NCBI RefSeq assembly: GCF_035581365.1
Contig: NZ_CP141590.1
Location: 2,600,001-2,664,000 of the forward strand
DNA length: 64,000 nucleotides
Direction of reading: 5' to 3'
From: Tsuneonella sp. CC-YZS046
GTDB lineage: Bacteria > Pseudomonadota > Alphaproteobacteria > Sphingomonadales > Sphingomonadaceae
The translations under genes were made by a program, and so were the position numbers. The notes beneath the pieces are model-generated. The model was given only the letters and a program-made list of their open reading frames with translations. It ran no database searches and was not told the DNA's origin. Positions 15,473 through 40,885 of this stretch are shown here, one piece after another. Position 1 is the stretch's first letter. Each line of letters opens with the position of its first letter.

Positions 15473-16776
15473 CCCGCCCGGCGCAGCGCGTCGGCGGGGC
15501 CGGTATCCAGCGCCGGCTGATCCGGCCAGATGCCGCGCGTGTCATACACGATCTTGTCCGCCCGCTCCGCCAGCGGCACCGATTTGAACACGTCGTGATC
15601 GACCAGCACAATCAGGATATCGCAATCCTCCAGCGCGGTATCGACATCGACCAGGCTCGCGCCCGTATCGGTGAACTCCAGCGGCAATTGCGCGGTATAG
15701 GGTTCCACCACATGGATGCGGCCGCCGAAGCGCCGGGCCAGCGTGCCGGCGACCAGCCGGGCGGGGCTTTCGCGAAAATCGTCGATATTGGCCTTGAAGG
15801 CCAGGCCGAGGCAGGCGACCTTCCGGTCGGGATGGGCTTCGACCATGGCGCTCGCCCGGGCGATGACATGGTGGATCTTGCCGTCGTTCACGCCCCGCGC
15901 GGTGCGGATCAGCGGGGTCTGCTCCGGCGCGCCATGCACGATGAACCATGGATCGACCGCGATGCAGTGGCCGCCCACGCCCGGCCCGGGCTGCAGGATG
16001 TTGACGCGCGGATGCCGGTTGGCCAGCCGGATCACTTCCCACACATCGAGATCCATCGCATCGGCGATGATCGAAAGCTCGTTGGCGAAGGCGATGTTGA
16101 CGTCGCGATAGGCGTTTTCGACCAGCTTGGTCATCTCGGCCGAGCGCGCATCGGTGGTCACGCAGGCGCCGCGCACGAAACGCTTGTAGAAGGACAGCGC
16201 CTTGCGCGCGCAGCGCGGCGTGATCCCGCCGATGGAGCGGTCGTTGTTGGCCAGCTCTTCCAGAATCCGCCCGGGCAGCACCCGTTCCGGGCAATAGGCG
16301 ATCGAAACGTCCGGCGTTCCGGCGCAAAGCCCCGGCAGTTTGAGATCGGGCCGTTCCGCCGCGATCATGTCGCGCATCCGTTCGGTAGTGCCGACCGGCG
16401 AAGTGGATTCGAGGATCACCACGTCTCCGCTTTTCAGCACTTTCGCCACCTCGCGGGCGGCGGACAGCACATAGGAGATGTCGGGCGTGTGATGGCCATC
16501 CTTTTCGAACGGCGTCGGCACCGCGATCACGAACACGTCGGCGGGGGCGATGGCTGTCGATGCGCGCAGCAGGCCGCGCTGCACCACGCCATGCACCAGG
16601 CCGTCCAGATCGACTTCCTCGATATGGATCTCGCCCCGGTTGATCGTATCGACCACCGGCTGTGCCACATCCACGCCCAGCACCTGCATTCCCGCCCGCG
16701 CGATGATCGCGGCGGTGGGCAGGCCGATATAGCCAAGGCCGACGACACAGACTTCAGGCAATTCGCTTCCGCGCAT
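15469..16776 (-). CDS. wecC: UDP-N-acetyl-D-mannosaminuronate dehydrogenase
   Basis: A 435-residue NAD-dependent nucleotide-sugar dehydrogenase that oxidises UDP-ManNAc to UDP-ManNAcA in two steps. The N-terminal Rossmann motif is CVVGLGYIGLPTAAIIA. FVIAVPTPF, ESTSPVGTTERM and CPERVLPGR follow, then the central helical dimer domain, and the catalytic Cys in GPGVGGHCIAVDPWF. The third domain has LGLAFKANIDDFRESPA and VDHDVFK. The closest recognisable type is WecC; the wecB epimerase just upstream supports that over UDP-glucose or other dehydrogenases. The stop codon belongs to repeat copy B. Genes that would use the ManNAcA are not in the window. Confidence 0.9.
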   Translation of the reverse strand: MRGSELPEVCVVGLGYIGLPTAAIIARAGMQVLGVDVAQPVVDTINRGEIHIEEVDLDGLVHGVVQRGLLRASTAIAPADVFVIAVPTPFEKDGHHTPDISYVLSAAREVAKVLKSGDVVILESTSPVGTTERMRDMIAAERPDLKLPGLCAGTPDVSIAYCPERVLPGRILEELANNDRSIGGITPRCARKALSFYKRFVRGACVTTDARSAEMTKLVENAYRDVNIAFANELSIIADAMDLDVWEVIRLANRHPRVNILQPGPGVGGHCIAVDPWFIVHGAPEQTPLIRTARGVNDGKIHHVIARASAMVEAHPDRKVACLGLAFKANIDDFRESPARLVAGTLARRFGGRIHVVEPYTAQLPLEFTDTGASLVDVDTALEDCDILIVLVDHDVFKSVPLAERADKIVYDTRGIWPDQPALDTGPADALRRAG

Positions 16777-30189: not shown

Positions 30190-30888
30190 TTACTCGGCGG
30201 TGGATTCGCTGGCGCGCTTCGCTTCCAGCCAAGCGGCGGCCTCCGCCTCCTGCGCGGCTTCCACCGCAGCCTTGGCGGCGGCTTCGCGTTCCGCGCGCAG
30301 TTCCTCGATCAGGGCTTCCCGGTCGCCGGTCATGCCGGGGTCGGCCGCGCGGTCTTCGCTGATGCCAGCCTTCTTCGCCGCCTTGGCGACGACCGCATCC
30401 AGCTCGCGCTGGGAGCACAGGCCGAGCGTGACGGGGTCCTTGGGCTGGATGTTCTGGATGTTCCAGTGGCTGCGTTCCCGGATCGCGGTGATCGTGTTGC
30501 GCGTGGTGCCGATCAGCTTGCCGATCTGGGCATCCGAAATCTCGGGGTGATTGCGCAATATCCAGGCGATGCCGTCGGGCTTGTCCTGCCGCTTGGAAAC
30601 CGGGGTGTAGCGCGGCCCCTTGGTGCGGCTGACGGAAACCGGGGCGCGCTGCATCTTCAGGCGGTATTCCGGATCGTTCTGGCCGCGCTCGATCTCCTCA
30701 TGCGTCAGCTCGCCGGAATGGATCGGATCGCGGCCCGTGTATTTGGAGCTGGCGAGATCGTCCGCCATCGCCTGGACTTCCAGAATATGGAGGCCGCAGA
30801 ACTCTGCGATCTGCTCGAAAGTGAGTGCGGTATTGTCGACCAGCCAGGATGCCGTGGCATGGGGCATCAGCGGTGTGGGTTGGGACAT
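30190..30888 (-). CDS. trcR: Cell cycle transcriptional regulator TrcR (DUF1013)
   Basis: A 232-residue DUF1013 protein, named TrcR in alphaproteobacteria and linked to cell-cycle transcription. The N-terminal half has WLVDNTALTFEQIAEFCGLH (a helix-turn-helix-like segment) and SKYTGRDPIHSGELTHEEIERG. The middle has DGIAWILRNHPEISDAQIGKLIGTTRNTI, a second DNA-binding-like helix pair. The C-terminal 60 residues are a charged Ala/Glu helix. The ATG at 30888 is favoured over an upstream one by GGAGAGAA. Together with sciP it points to a CtrA-type cell cycle. Its detailed targets are not known to me. Confidence 0.85.
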   Translation of the reverse strand: MSQPTPLMPHATASWLVDNTALTFEQIAEFCGLHILEVQAMADDLASSKYTGRDPIHSGELTHEEIERGQNDPEYRLKMQRAPVSVSRTKGPRYTPVSKRQDKPDGIAWILRNHPEISDAQIGKLIGTTRNTITAIRERSHWNIQNIQPKDPVTLGLCSQRELDAVVAKAAKKAGISEDRAADPGMTGDREALIEELRAEREAAAKAAVEAAQEAEAAAWLEAKRASESTAE

Positions 30889-30920
30889 GGTTCTCTCCGC
30901 CCGAAAAAGGGCCAAAACAG

Positions 30921-31008: not shown

Positions 31009-32034
31009 TCAGGCGGCCAGCACCTGCGGCTCGCAAGCCAGCGCCGACAGGAACTGCGCCGTGCTCGCTCCCCAGCTGAAAGTGGCCGCATGGGCAATGC
31101 AGCTTTCGCGATCCAGCTTCAGCGCGGCGGCGATCGCGCGATCGAGATCCTCGTCCATCGCGCCGCAGCTGGGCGTCAGTATGTCGAGCGGCCCCGTGAC
31201 CGGATAGGCCGCGACCGGGGTGCCGCAAGCCAGCGCCTCGATCATCACCAGGCCAAAGGTGTCGGTCCTGCTGGGAAACACGAACACGTCCGCTCCGGCA
31301 TAGCAGGCGGCCAGATCCGCGCCTTGCTGCTTGCCCAGGAAATGGACCGTGGGGAATTGCAGCTTCAGCCGGGCGAGCGCCGGGCCATCGCCGACCACCA
31401 CTTTCGATCCCGGATGGGTCGAGCGCAGGAAGGCTTCGATATTCTTCTCGACCGACACCCGGCCGACATAGAGCTGGATCGGCCGCTCAAGCTCCCAGAA
31501 CAGGGCGGGCGGCTCCATATCCGGATGGAAATCGGCAAGGTCGACACCCCGGCTCCATGCCCGGACCTGCGGCAATCCCTGGCTGCGCAATTGCGCCCTG
31601 ACCGTATCGGTCGCCACCATGATTCCCGCCGATGGCCGGTGGAACCAGCGGATATAGGGCCAGAAAGCGCGGGCCGGCAGGCCCGTGCGGCGCGCGAGAT
31701 AATCCGGGAACTGGGTGTGATAGGCCGTGGTGAACGAAATGCCGCGCGACAGGCAGTAACGCCGCGCGGCCAGGCCCAGCGGGCCTTCGGTCGCGATATG
31801 GACCGCGTCGGCACCGATCGCGGCAATGCGCTTGCCGATATTGCCGCGCCGGGCCAGCGCCAGGCGGATTTCCGGATAGCTCGGGCACGGCATCGACGCG
31901 AACTGGTCGGGGGAAATGACCGTGACGTCATGCCCCCGCGAGCGCAGCTCCCGCGTCACCGCGGACAGGGTGCGGACAACTCCGTTGACCTGCGGCGCCC
32001 AAGCATCGGTCACCAAGGCGATGCGCAGCCCCAT
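31009..32034 (-). CDS. GT4 glycosyltransferase, Agt-like (glycolipid synthesis)
   Basis: A 341-residue GT-B glycosyltransferase. It starts LRIALVTDAWAPQVNGVVRTL, then FASMPCPSYPEIRLAL, VHIATEGPLGLAARRY, FTTAYHTQFPDYLARR, WSRGVDLADFHP, LYVGRVSVEKNIEAFL, and the donor-site VFVFPSRTDTFGLVMIEALACGTPVAAYP (shown in part). This pattern matches the Agt-type diacylglycerol glycosyltransferases that make mono-glycosyl or glucuronosyl diacylglycerol during phosphate starvation (family knowledge). Its ATG lies two bases after the stop of a PlcP-like phosphoesterase, the partner that supplies diacylglycerol. The donor sugar cannot be read. Related GT4 enzymes with other acceptors remain possible. Confidence 0.82.
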   Translation of the reverse strand: MGLRIALVTDAWAPQVNGVVRTLSAVTRELRSRGHDVTVISPDQFASMPCPSYPEIRLALARRGNIGKRIAAIGADAVHIATEGPLGLAARRYCLSRGISFTTAYHTQFPDYLARRTGLPARAFWPYIRWFHRPSAGIMVATDTVRAQLRSQGLPQVRAWSRGVDLADFHPDMEPPALFWELERPIQLYVGRVSVEKNIEAFLRSTHPGSKVVVGDGPALARLKLQFPTVHFLGKQQGADLAACYAGADVFVFPSRTDTFGLVMIEALACGTPVAAYPVTGPLDILTPSCGAMDEDLDRAIAAALKLDRESCIAHAATFSWGASTAQFLSALACEPQVLAA

Positions 32035-32036
32035 GC

Positions 32037-32930
32037 CTATGCCGCCGCTTCCAGAGCGGCTATCGCGCCGCCGGCTTCGCGCTTCGCGATTTCCTCGGGC
32101 CAGTGGAGAATTTCCATCCGTCCGTCGAAATGCTCGACCAGCGCGGTGCAGCCTTCCACCCAGTCGCCGTCATTGTAATAGGCCACATCCCCGAACTGGC
32201 GCATTTCGGCATTGTGGATATGGCCGCAGACCACGCCGTCCACCCCTCTGTCGCCAGCGGCCTTGGCCACCACTTCCTCGTAGCGGGAGATGAACTCGAC
32301 CGCGTTCTTGACCTTGTGCTTGGCCATCTTGCTGAGCGACCAGTAGGGCAGCTCCAGCCGGCTGCGCACCGCGTTGACCCAGCGGTTTAGGTTCATCAGC
32401 AGGGTGTAGGCCGCATCCCCCACGCAGGCGAGCCAGCGGTGGGCCAGCATCACGGCGTCGAACTCGTCCCCATGCAGCACCATCAGCCGCCGTCCATCGG
32501 CGGTGGTGTGGAAGGCCGTGCGCCGGATCTCCACGCCTCCGAAGCTCAGCCCCGAGAACTGGCGGAACATCTCGTCGTGATTGCCGGGAATATAGACGAT
32601 GCGCGTGCCGCGCTTCGCCCGCTTCAGGATACGCCAGACGATGTCGTTATGCGCCGCGGGCCAGTAGAATTTCTTCTTCAGCCGCCATCCGTCGATGATG
32701 TCGCCGACCAGATACATGGTCTCACTGTCGACGCTGTCGAGGAAATCGATCAGCAGCTCGGCATTGCACCCCTTGGTTCCGAGATGCACGTCCGAGATCC
32801 AGACCGTGCGGTATCGCCGCCTTCCGGAAACCGGAGGCTCCGGCCGCGCCGGCCGCAAGCGGGAGAGAGGAACGGCAGCCGCATCGCTGCTGGCCGCCAG
32901 ATCACGATCGACAAGTCTTTCGACGCCCAT
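32037..32930 (-). CDS. Metallophosphoesterase, PlcP-like phospholipase C
   Basis: A 297-residue calcineurin-like phosphoesterase. The metal-binding blocks are TVWISDVHLGTKGCNAELL, YLVGDIIDGW, YIPGNHDEMFR, LMVLHGDEFDAV and GVVCGHIHNAEMR, all complete, followed by YNDGDWVEGCTALVEHFDGRMEIL. Databases often label this type UDP-2,3-diacylglucosamine hydrolase, but the WSLSKMAKHKVKNAVEFI region and the adjacent Agt-like glycosyltransferase match PlcP. PlcP is the phosphate-starvation phospholipase C of Sinorhizobium and marine alphaproteobacteria, which releases diacylglycerol from phospholipids. A PHO-box-like repeat lies 46 bases upstream in the right orientation. The N-terminal 38 residues are an unconserved Arg/Pro-rich lead. 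Confidence 0.82.
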   Translation of the reverse strand: MGVERLVDRDLAASSDAAAVPLSRLRPARPEPPVSGRRRYRTVWISDVHLGTKGCNAELLIDFLDSVDSETMYLVGDIIDGWRLKKKFYWPAAHNDIVWRILKRAKRGTRIVYIPGNHDEMFRQFSGLSFGGVEIRRTAFHTTADGRRLMVLHGDEFDAVMLAHRWLACVGDAAYTLLMNLNRWVNAVRSRLELPYWSLSKMAKHKVKNAVEFISRYEEVVAKAAGDRGVDGVVCGHIHNAEMRQFGDVAYYNDGDWVEGCTALVEHFDGRMEILHWPEEIAKREAGGAIAALEAAA

Positions 32931-32975
32931 GGGCGAATCACTAGCCGGGGATTGTTACGCGCCAACCACAATTCG

Positions 32976-32993
32976 ATGACATTACAGTTACAT
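32976..32993 (-). promoter_or_regulatory. PHO-box-like direct repeat upstream of plcP-agt
   Basis: On the minus strand: ATGTAAC, TGTA, ATGTCAT. The PhoB/PhoP binding site is two CTGTCAT-like heptamers spaced four bases apart (11-base period). Here the heptamers match at five and six of seven positions, with the exact spacing, and point toward the plcP-like gene 46 bases downstream. This fits the known phosphate control of plcP-agt pairs; PhoB binding is inferred. Confidence 0.55.
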
Positions 32994-37665: not shown

Positions 37666-38169
37666 TCAAGGGCTGTCGGAATCCGGCTTTTCCCTGGCGT
37701 CCCATTCCTCGCGCGTGATCCAGCCATCCTCGTTCGCGTCCGCCCGCGCGAACTCCGCATTGGACATGGCGAACCATTCCGCCAGAGTCAGCTTCTTGTC
37801 CCCATCGCTGTCACCGGCCGCGATCCGCTTTTCCGAAGCCGGTTCCGTGGGCAGGCCCAGCGATACGCGCGCCGCGTCCATTTCCTGCACGGTGATCGTG
37901 CCGTCCCGGTTGGCATCTATCGCCGCAAAGATCTTCTGCGCGGCCTGGCTGTGCTCCGTCGAGGTCAAGCGCCCGTCATGATCGGCATCCCTGCCGTCGA
38001 ACGAAGCGAGAGGCGCCGTTGCCGCGGGATCTTCCGTGACCGCCGGAACCGGCGTGGCCACGGCCGGCACGACCGCGCGCGCCTGCTCGTCAGGCCCGGT
38101 TTCCTTCTTCCCGCATCCCGCGAGCAAAGCGGCGGCCATGGCCGCACCCAGAATGATCCGTGCGTGCAT
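37666..38169 (-). CDS. EF-hand lipoprotein
   Basis: A 167-residue calcium-binding-type lipoprotein. The lipobox LAGC puts the lipidated Cys at 19. After an Ala/Pro/Val linker there are four EF-hand loops: DADHDGRLTSTE, DANRDGTITVQE, DSDGDKKLTLAE and DANEDGWITREE. All have Asp at positions 1 and 3 and Glu at 12, so they should bind metal. The third has Lys at position 6, where Gly is normal, and may be weaker. It is probably attached to the outer membrane facing the periplasm. Its role is unknown. It converges with clpA. Confidence 0.85.
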   Translation of the reverse strand: MHARIILGAAMAAALLAGCGKKETGPDEQARAVVPAVATPVPAVTEDPAATAPLASFDGRDADHDGRLTSTEHSQAAQKIFAAIDANRDGTITVQEMDAARVSLGLPTEPASEKRIAAGDSDGDKKLTLAEWFAMSNAEFARADANEDGWITREEWDAREKPDSDSP

Positions 38170-38279
38170 GGGTGCAATCCTCTCAAAACGCTTGCCCGAC
38201 TATCTCTAGCGCCTGTTGCGCGCTACGCAACAGACAGGATCGAAGCGGAACGATTTCGCGCAATCGCCGCTATGTTGCC

Positions 38280-39290
38280 ATGATGCGTCCGCCTTTTTCA
38301 TGGATCAGGCCGGAGCCCTGGGGCATCCGGATCGAACCGGCCGGCTGCTGGATCGATCCGGCGCGCCCGGTGGATCGCGCGCTCATTACCCACGGTCACG
38401 CCGACCATGCCCGCGGCGGCCATGCGCAAACCATAGCAACGCCGGAAACCCTTGCGATCATGGCCTTGCGCTATGGCACCGACGCAGGCGCGGTGCCGGT
38501 GGAATATGGGGAAGAAATCACGTTGGCGAAGGGTGTCACCGCGCGGTTCATCCCGGCGGGCCATGTTCTCGGCTCCGCGCAGATATTGCTCGAACATGCC
38601 GGAGAGCGGGTGATCGTGACAGGCGACTACAAGCGGTGTCCGGACCCGACTTGCGCGCCCTTCGAAGTTGCGCCGTGCGACTTGCTGATCACCGAAGCGA
38701 CCTTCGGCCTGCCGGTGTTCATCCACCCGCCGGTCGAAGATGAAATCGCCAAGCTGCTGGCTGCCCGCAACGCCCATCCCGGCCGCTGCGTTCTGGTCGG
38801 GGCCTATGCGCTGGGCAAGGCCCAGCGCGTCATCGCGCAATTGCGCCTGGCGGGCTATGCCGAGCCGATCTGGCTGCATGGCGCGATGGAGCGCATGTGC
38901 CGGTTGTATGAGGACTTCGGCATCGAACTCGGCCCGTTGCGGCTGGTGGCGGAAGCCGGGAAAGCCGACGATCTGCGCGGCCAGATCGTGATCTGCCCGC
39001 CCGGCGCGCTGAATGACCGCTGGAACCGCCGCCTGCCCGATCCGGTCACCGCCATGGCGTCAGGCTGGATGCGGGTGCGCCAGCGCGCCCGGCAGCGCAA
39101 TGTGGAGCTGCCGCTGATTATCTCGGACCATGCGGACTGGAACGAGCTTACCCGGACGATCGAGCAGATAGACCCTCGGGAGAGCTGGATAACCCATGGC
39201 CGCGAGGAAGCGCTGCTGCGCTGGCACCAGCTGCACCAGCGCCGCGCCCGGGCGCTGGCCATGGTCGGCTATGAGGACGAGGACGATTGA
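38280..39290 (+). CDS. Ligase-associated DNA exonuclease (metallo-beta-lactamase fold)
   Basis: A 336-residue protein of the metallo-beta-lactamase/beta-CASP-like nuclease group found beside ATP-dependent DNA ligases. The metal motif is THGHADHARGG (HxHxDH). HVLGSAQILLEHAGERVIVTGDYKR, ITEATFGLPVF and, near the end, ISDHADWNEL with THGREEAL supply the remaining ligands. It has ATG ATG at 38280/38283; upstream in-frame codons overlap the divergent EF-hand gene. Its TGA overlaps the ligase ATG (TGATG). In other genomes the same module also has an Lhr-like helicase and a phosphoesterase; neither is next to it here. Confidence 0.9.
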   Translation: MMRPPFSWIRPEPWGIRIEPAGCWIDPARPVDRALITHGHADHARGGHAQTIATPETLAIMALRYGTDAGAVPVEYGEEITLAKGVTARFIPAGHVLGSAQILLEHAGERVIVTGDYKRCPDPTCAPFEVAPCDLLITEATFGLPVFIHPPVEDEIAKLLAARNAHPGRCVLVGAYALGKAQRVIAQLRLAGYAEPIWLHGAMERMCRLYEDFGIELGPLRLVAEAGKADDLRGQIVICPPGALNDRWNRRLPDPVTAMASGWMRVRQRARQRNVELPLIISDHADWNELTRTIEQIDPRESWITHGREEALLRWHQLHQRRARALAMVGYEDEDD

Positions 39291-40885
39291 TGGAGCGCTT
39301 CGCCGCCCTGCTCGACGCTCTGGTCTACACCCGGTCGCGCAACGCCAAGCTGGAACTCATCGCCGACTATCTGCGGCAGACGCTCGATCCCGACCGGGGC
39401 TGGGCCTTGGCGGCGCTGACCGGAAGCCTCGATTTTCCCGCGGTCAAATCCTCCACTATCCGCGCGCTGCTGCAGAACCGGATCGACCCGGTGCTGTGGA
39501 CCCTGTCGCGCGACTATGTCGGCGACACGGCCGAGACCGCCAGCCTGCTGTGGCCGGAGCCGGATGGCGCAAGGGCCGACCCGCCCGGCGTTTCGGAAGT
39601 GGTGAAGCATCTGCGGGGCATGACCCGCTCCACCGCGGCCGCCGAATTGGCGGCGCTGCTGGACCGGCTCGACGCCTCGGGCCGCTATGCCCTGCTCAAG
39701 CTCGCGACCGGCGGGATGCGGATCGGCATTTCCGCCCGCCTCGCCAAGACGGCCTTCGCCCAGGCCTTTGGAGTGCCATTGGACGAGGTGGAGGAATATT
39801 GGCACGGGCTGGAGCCGCCCTACGCCCCCTTGTTCGACTGGGCGGCGCATGGGCAGCCCCCGCCGGATACGGAAAACCTGCCGCTGTTCCGGCCCTTCAT
39901 GCTGGCCCATCCGCTGGAAGGCGCGACGATCGACGTGACGGACTATGTCGCGGAGTGGAAATGGGACGGCATTCGCGTGCAGACAGTCCATGCCGCCGGC
40001 GAAACCCGTGTGTTCTCGCGTTCGGGCGACGATATTTCGCACAGCTTCCCGGAAATCGCGGAGGCTTTGCGCATTCCCGCCGTGCTCGATGGCGAACTGC
40101 TGGTGCGCGGCTCGCATCAGGGCGGCGAGGAAGGCGGCGCGGCCAGCTTCAACGCCTTGCAGCAGCGGCTGGGCCGCAAGCTGGTGAGCAGGAGGATGCT
40201 GGAGCAGGCGCCCGCCTTCGTCCGGCTCTACGACGTGCTGATCCTCGAAGGCGAGGATCTGCGTCCCCTGCCCTGGAGCGAACGGCGGATACTGCTGGAA
40301 CGGCTGATCGAACGCCTGCCCGCCAGCCATTTCGACCTGTCGCAGATGCTACCGGCGGACAGCTTCGAACAGCTGGCGGCGATCCGCGCGGCGGCGCGAG
40401 ACGATTCCATCGAAGGGCTGATGCTCAAGCGGCGCGACAGCCCCTATGTGGCGGGGCGCCGGACCGGGCTGTGGTATAAATGGAAGCGCGACCCGCTGCT
40501 GGTCGATTGCGTGCTGATGTATGCCCAGCGCGGATCGGGCAAGCGCTCCAGCTTCTATTCCGACTATACGTTCGGCTGCTGGGATGGCGATCCCGATCAG
40601 GGAGCGGAACTGCTGCCCGTGGGCAAGGCCTATTCCGGCTTCACCGATGAGGAGCTGAAATGGCTCGACCGGCATGTCCGCACCCATACCGTCAATCGCT
40701 TCGGCCCCGTGCGGGAAACCGACAAGAGCCTGGTGTTCGAAGTCGCGTTCGATTCCATCCATCCCAGCAAGCGCCACAAATCCGGGCTCGCCATGCGCTT
40801 TCCCCGCATCCATCGCATCCGCAAGGACAAGCCAGCCTACGAGGCGGACCGCATCGAAAGCCTGAAGGCCCTGATTCGCGATTGA
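39290..40885 (+). CDS. ATP-dependent DNA ligase (PP_1105 family)
   Basis: A 531-residue ATP-dependent ligase that seals DNA nicks. The N-terminal helical DNA-binding domain (about 1-200) has LKLATGGMRIGISARLAKTA. The nucleotidyltransferase domain has motif I EWKWDGIRVQ with the Lys that takes AMP, then VFSRSGDDISHSFPEI, VLDGELL, VRLYDVLILEGED, IEGLMLKRRDSPY (motif IV) and LWYKWKRDP (motif V). The OB-fold with SLVFEVAFDSIHPSKRHKSG closes the protein. A TTG three bases upstream could also start it. It is co-translated with the exonuclease, suggesting a joint repair role. The essential NAD-dependent ligase is expected elsewhere. Confidence 0.93.
   Translation: MERFAALLDALVYTRSRNAKLELIADYLRQTLDPDRGWALAALTGSLDFPAVKSSTIRALLQNRIDPVLWTLSRDYVGDTAETASLLWPEPDGARADPPGVSEVVKHLRGMTRSTAAAELAALLDRLDASGRYALLKLATGGMRIGISARLAKTAFAQAFGVPLDEVEEYWHGLEPPYAPLFDWAAHGQPPPDTENLPLFRPFMLAHPLEGATIDVTDYVAEWKWDGIRVQTVHAAGETRVFSRSGDDISHSFPEIAEALRIPAVLDGELLVRGSHQGGEEGGAASFNALQQRLGRKLVSRRMLEQAPAFVRLYDVLILEGEDLRPLPWSERRILLERLIERLPASHFDLSQMLPADSFEQLAAIRAAARDDSIEGLMLKRRDSPYVAGRRTGLWYKWKRDPLLVDCVLMYAQRGSGKRSSFYSDYTFGCWDGDPDQGAELLPVGKAYSGFTDEELKWLDRHVRTHTVNRFGPVRETDKSLVFEVAFDSIHPSKRHKSGLAMRFPRIHRIRKDKPAYEADRIESLKALIRD

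Follow-up and report, generated by a model that had tools for sequence, protein, structure and literature searches.

A probable PhoB-activated operon of plcP and agt that would remodel membrane lipids in Tsuneonella sp. CC-YZS046

Our study identified, in Tsuneonella sp. CC-YZS046, two adjacent genes, plcP and agt, that very probably constitute a PhoB-activated operon for membrane lipid remodelling under phosphate shortage. This reading draws on elements that we observed directly: the gene pair, the families to which its products belong, their catalytic residues, a conserved promoter array, the Pho machinery and an enzyme that makes a candidate sugar donor. The enzyme activities, the binding of PhoB, the induction and the exact sugar are carried over from characterised homologues, and on their model the system would work as follows. 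When phosphate is short, PhoR would phosphorylate PhoB, which would bind a tandem 11-bp array at 32993-32950, standing in for the -35 element, and would drive transcription of both genes leftward. PlcP would then cleave phospholipids into diacylglycerol and phosphorylated head groups, and Agt would move glucose and/or glucuronic acid from UDP-sugars onto the diacylglycerol, giving glycolipids of the MGDG/GADG type, with the outcome that phosphorus would be freed and the bilayer preserved. A sequence-only reading of this DNA had proposed a PlcP/Agt lipid-remodelling pair under a PHO box, and the family placement, the residues, the promoter and the Pho machinery described below all support that proposal. 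All coordinates refer to the window, that is, the whole stretch of 64,000 nucleotides that was analysed.

The gene pair and its glycosyltransferase

The plcP gene (32037-32930, minus strand) encodes a PlcP-type calcineurin-like metallophosphoesterase of 297 aa, and the agt gene (31009-32034, minus strand) encodes a GT4 glycosyltransferase of the diacylglycerol type, 341 aa in length. The open reading frame coordinates and the sequence agree with the earlier description of a phosphoesterase and a GT4 glycosyltransferase on one strand, with two bases between the plcP stop codon (TAG) and the agt ATG. Relatives whose protein also begins with MG(V/I)E, and whose ATG lies at the equivalent position, support 32930 as the start of plcP. 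The gene is single copy in this genome, and the phosphoesterase is present in 143 of the 201 genomes of the family. Among 97 distinct sphingomonad relatives, 93 carry a glycosyltransferase gene directly 3' of plcP on the same strand; of the other four loci, three run into a contig end and the fourth (L024) lacks a glycosyltransferase match. On this arrangement plcP and agt most likely form one operon and would be co-transcribed. Other genes of the window were also recorded. A gene of the TrcR family (cell cycle regulator) is located downstream of agt (30190-30915, minus strand; Pfam PF06242, E = 2e-63). At 38160-40885 (plus strand), the translations point to two consecutive genes, one resembling an MBL-fold exonuclease and the next an ATP-dependent DNA ligase, which together recall a ligase-associated DNA damage response pair. 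A UDP-N-acetyl-D-mannosamine dehydrogenase at 15532-16755 (minus strand; 568.9 bits, cut-off 459) suggests a surface polysaccharide locus.

GT4 domains were detected in the agt product, which carries the published Agt motifs GRVxxEKN and FPSxTDTFG, as GRVSVEKN at 191 and FPSRTDTFG at 253, in common with the Agt of A. tumefaciens (atu2297). The catalytic residues His104 and Asp256 of GTcp from 'Ca. Pelagibacter' HTCC7211 (PMC8231724) are matched by a His-Asp dyad at His105 and Asp258, the UDP-sugar residues are matched as well, and the diacylglycerol-contacting Thr162, Arg163 and Trp320 of GTcp correspond to Ser161, Arg162 and Trp321, so that the threonine is replaced by serine. The diacylglycerol-binding Arg and Trp are reported to be strictly conserved in the published Agt/GTcp family (PMC8231724), and both are kept in the window protein. 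This protein is 49% identical, at 99% coverage, to the P. aeruginosa glycosyltransferase that adjoins plcP; a PDB sequence search with it returned distant GT4s only. The diagnostic Agt residues and the adjacency to plcP across the order uphold the assignment of the open reading frame at 31009 as an Agt-type glycosyltransferase. By analogy with its homologues, the enzyme would convert diacylglycerol and a UDP-sugar into a glycolipid, and the exact sugar would likewise be theirs. The glycosyl donor, which the sequence-only reading had left open, is narrowed to UDP-Glc and/or UDP-GlcA; the genome encodes a protein of the UDP-glucose 6-dehydrogenase type, so UDP-glucuronate can probably be made.

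It is very unlikely that this glycosyltransferase instead glucuronosylates ceramide and so makes glycosphingolipids of the kind that sphingomonads typically have, PlcP being no more than a neighbour. Glycosyltransferases do make glucuronosylceramides in sphingomonads and in Caulobacter, and the Caulobacter enzymes are controlled by PhoB; when starved of phosphate, this organism makes both glycoglycerolipids and a glycosphingolipid (PMC6445935). However, in the glycosyltransferase network of a 2026 Novosphingobium study, Sgt1-type ceramide glucuronosyltransferases and Agrobacterium Agt-like proteins fall into separate clusters (PMC13318209), and the window enzyme both adjoins plcP, whose product would be diacylglycerol, and retains Arg162 and Trp321 of the Agt diacylglycerol-binding site.

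The promoter array and the Pho machinery

The genome contains a phoR-pstSCAB-phoU-phoB cluster. The PHO box proposed upstream of plcP corresponds to array units 1-2 (ATGTAACTGTA ATGTCAT; 32976-32993, minus strand), where we find the 18-base direct repeat ATGTAAC-TGTA-ATGTCAT as described, although its distance from the plcP ATG is 45 bases by our count and not 46. Measured against the E. coli-type consensus the site is weak, since it falls outside the matches with three or fewer mismatches to CTGTCATNNNNCTGTCAT; the two matches that the window does contain at this level both lie elsewhere and equal chance expectation. This consensus was rejected as a detector, and because it fails on the site, an 18-bp matrix was learned from the clade instead, trained on the sequences upstream of pstS in 29 relatives, with our own genome and all plcP loci excluded. 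With this pstS-derived matrix, 32976-32993 (minus strand) ranks first of approximately 128,000 window positions, with 15.8 bits, and is the only one to reach the threshold of 15.7 bits; its overlapping neighbour unit ranks third. Of the 98 plcP upstream regions scored, one of them from our own genome, 84% lie above the 95% level of shuffles. In our genome, pstS and phoB are each preceded by a site of 20.9 bits. The top rank given by an independent matrix confirms the PHO box upstream of plcP: on the sequence evidence the box is real, and PhoB is predicted to bind it. The window contains one more PHO-like site (51991, plus strand; 14.3 bits; CTGTCACAAATACGAAAC), the second half-site of which is poor.

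It is important to note that the promoter element does not end with the two units first recognised, as two further 11-bp units (TTGTGGTTGGC and GCGTAACAATC) that the sequence-only reading missed continue it to 32950. The complete structure is a four-unit array with an 11-bp period at 32993-32950 (minus strand), composed of ATGTAACTGTA, ATGTCATCGAA, TTGTGGTTGGC and GCGTAACAATC. Its downstream half (units 3-4; 32950-32971, minus strand) is the portion conserved across the order, a footprint common to relatives across Sphingomonadales, and conservation is highest in the last unit. A 54-bp element, also with an 11-bp period, is common to the plcP upstream regions of 97 relatives; it ends in TGT(A/C)ACA(A/T)T and is followed, ten bases past the last half-site, by a CATAGG-like hexamer. 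The lineages closest to our genome match this element most strongly; in Sphingobium and in part of Sphingomonas the match is weaker, and it is chiefly the last unit and the hexamer that are retained. A held-out matrix of relatives assigns 36.7 bits to the window site, and for a model (R1) built from 48 relatives, our own genome excluded, the array is the only genome-wide match at E values up to 10 (E = 1.5e-5; E values of this kind are rough, and the training relatives are not independent). When units 3-4 (TTGTGGT-GCGTAAC) are scored as a PHO box in our genome with the pstS-derived matrix, they reach a low 4.0 bits; the half with the strong site is therefore not the half that is conserved.

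A candidate -10 hexamer, TAGTGA (32938-32943, minus strand), lies 10 bp past the last PHO half-site and aligns with the CATAGG/CATTGG of the relatives, in which the CAT is conserved at this same spacing. The pho promoters of E. coli have an identical 10-bp spacing between half-site and hexamer, and the general layout of Pho-regulon promoters, with two 7-bp half-sites at an 11-bp period approximately 10 bp before the -10 element, is found at plcP. Only 7 bases separate the candidate hexamer from the plcP ATG, and the gap is similarly short in the nearest relatives (L002, L008, L010, L014); in many other sphingomonads it is approximately 40 bases. Such a short distance implies that the plcP message may be leaderless in this sub-clade. 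We tentatively propose, as a possible rather than a probable scheme, that plcP-agt promoters across the order might use three to four in-phase PhoB half-sites where two are usual, with a proximal half that has diverged from the pst type (TGTAACAWT for TGTCAT) and that maybe confers another phosphate threshold or a more cooperative response than at pstS, and that in our own sub-clade the message might be leaderless, with the plcP ATG at the expected transcription start.

Regulators of the OmpR family generally bind tandem repeats of 10-11 bp, and the repeats in the consensus of the relatives end in TGTAACA, in contrast to the CTGTCAT consensus; both observations would fit a site for another member of this family (for example, an envelope-stress regulator of the ChvI or CenR type), in which case the operon would answer envelope stress and not phosphate. 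We regard this as highly improbable, given that a matrix trained only on pstS promoters places the site at the top of the window and most plcP upstream regions above the shuffle level, and that in this genome the phoB promoter (GTGTCATAACTTTGTAACAATTTTGCGGAATGGG) is laid out in the same way as that of plcP.

Two further sets of genes related to phosphate and lipids accompany the PhoB-activated operon proposed here. A second phosphate cluster (L115; G000:C1:858500-866500) comprises polyphosphate kinase 2, a protein without NCBIfam match, a second PstS and a Na/Pi symporter, and a PHO-like site of 14.1 bits is located just before polyphosphate kinase 2, its first gene. The genome also encodes a BtaA-type (DUF3419) protein, for DGTS; in the stretch scanned with the pstS-derived matrix no PHO box was found next to btaA, so we list BtaA as a capability and not as a member of the regulon.

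The phosphoesterase and the lipid A genes

Pfam detects a Metallophos domain in the plcP product, which is 48-55% identical to PlcP-type proteins of S. meliloti (48.5%), P. aeruginosa (53%), Roseomonas and Mitsuaria. We identified these references as homologues from their organism, their context and identity values in the literature, and not from accessions of the assayed proteins; as a check, a comparison of the S. meliloti reference with that of P. aeruginosa gave 46.6% identity, against a published 46% for PA3219 and S. meliloti PlcP (PMC8528852). The calcineurin-type metal-binding motifs SDVHLG, GNHDE and GHIH appear as in the reference PlcPs, and in our tree the protein branches with those of S. 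meliloti and P. aeruginosa, the PlcP clade that includes the sphingomonads having a support of 94/99. A PDB sequence search identified no PlcP relative among solved structures. By analogy with its homologues, the protein would convert phospholipid into diacylglycerol and a phospho-headgroup.

That the phosphoesterase is LpxH (UDP-2,3-diacylglucosamine diphosphatase), with the glycosyltransferase acting on lipopolysaccharide or polysaccharide, is extremely improbable, and this identity was rejected: homologues in plasmid records carry this annotation and LpxH models do match weakly, but the scores of 38 and 32 bits are far below the respective cut-offs of 134 and 190 bits, the protein reads GNHD(E) where LpxH has GNRD, the tree separates it from five bona fide LpxH with branch support of 100/100, and no match to LpxC, LpxI or LpxH was found in a genome estimated to be 99.99% complete. 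The searches for LpxC and LpxI were both positive in a Caulobacter control, and since neither was found here an LpxH role becomes moot; no match was found for a lipid A pathway that the phosphoesterase could serve. The earlier preference for PlcP over LpxH thus stands, as neither the LpxH models nor the tree recovered an LpxH grouping. It also follows that PlcP homologues deposited as UDP-2,3-diacylglucosamine diphosphatase are misannotated. The plcP-like gene on P. aeruginosa plasmids was seen in three records (H15-H17; e.g., NZ_CP137508, L148), with a glycosyltransferase gene directly 3' in the one record read.

Relation to known systems and biological meaning

The plcP-agt pair and its starvation response have already been reported in Sphingomonadales. 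In Erythrobacter sp. NAP1, assigned to this order by taxonomy, agt lies downstream of plcP in a 'type 2' plcP neighbourhood, and phosphorus starvation leads to MGDG, GADG and DGTS (PMC4796936). Order and gene order are alike in the two organisms, and our genome also encodes the BtaA-type protein for DGTS; the lipid response was measured in NAP1 and is predicted for our organism, and the four-unit array is described for our genome. The proposed replacement of phospholipids by glycolipids is therefore supported, but its presentation as unexpected in a clade known for glycosphingolipids was overstated, because a member of the same order already has both the genes and the glycolipid response. Citromicrobium bathyomarinum, also of Sphingomonadales, has a GTcb in the same clade as the SAR11 GTcp (PMC8231724), and its locus (L069) carries plcP and a glycosyltransferase 65% identical to ours.

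In P. aeruginosa, mutants of PA3219 and PA3218 and purified Agt confirm the pathway, and this PlcP-Agt1 pair, like ours, is adjacent with a PHO box upstream (PMC8528852). The plasmid pair, to which our PlcP and glycosyltransferase are 53% and 49% identical, is very probably the same pair as PA3219-PA3218. P. aeruginosa has a second glycosyltransferase (Agt2) for GADG (PMC8528852), whereas no second close Agt paralogue was found in our genome, the best other glycosyltransferase reaching 32% over part of its length. The S. meliloti record, despite the PlcP similarity given above, has no glycosyltransferase beside the gene, while our genome has one in the predicted operon.

The main addition to existing knowledge is the extended, order-wide promoter architecture, which makes a promoter at base resolution available for testing. 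A phosphate-saving membrane response measured in one sphingomonad, Erythrobacter NAP1, is extended by these results to most of the family sampled. In bacteria that lack LPS and have glycosphingolipids in its place, such a response would leave a nearly phosphorus-free envelope when the cells are starved.
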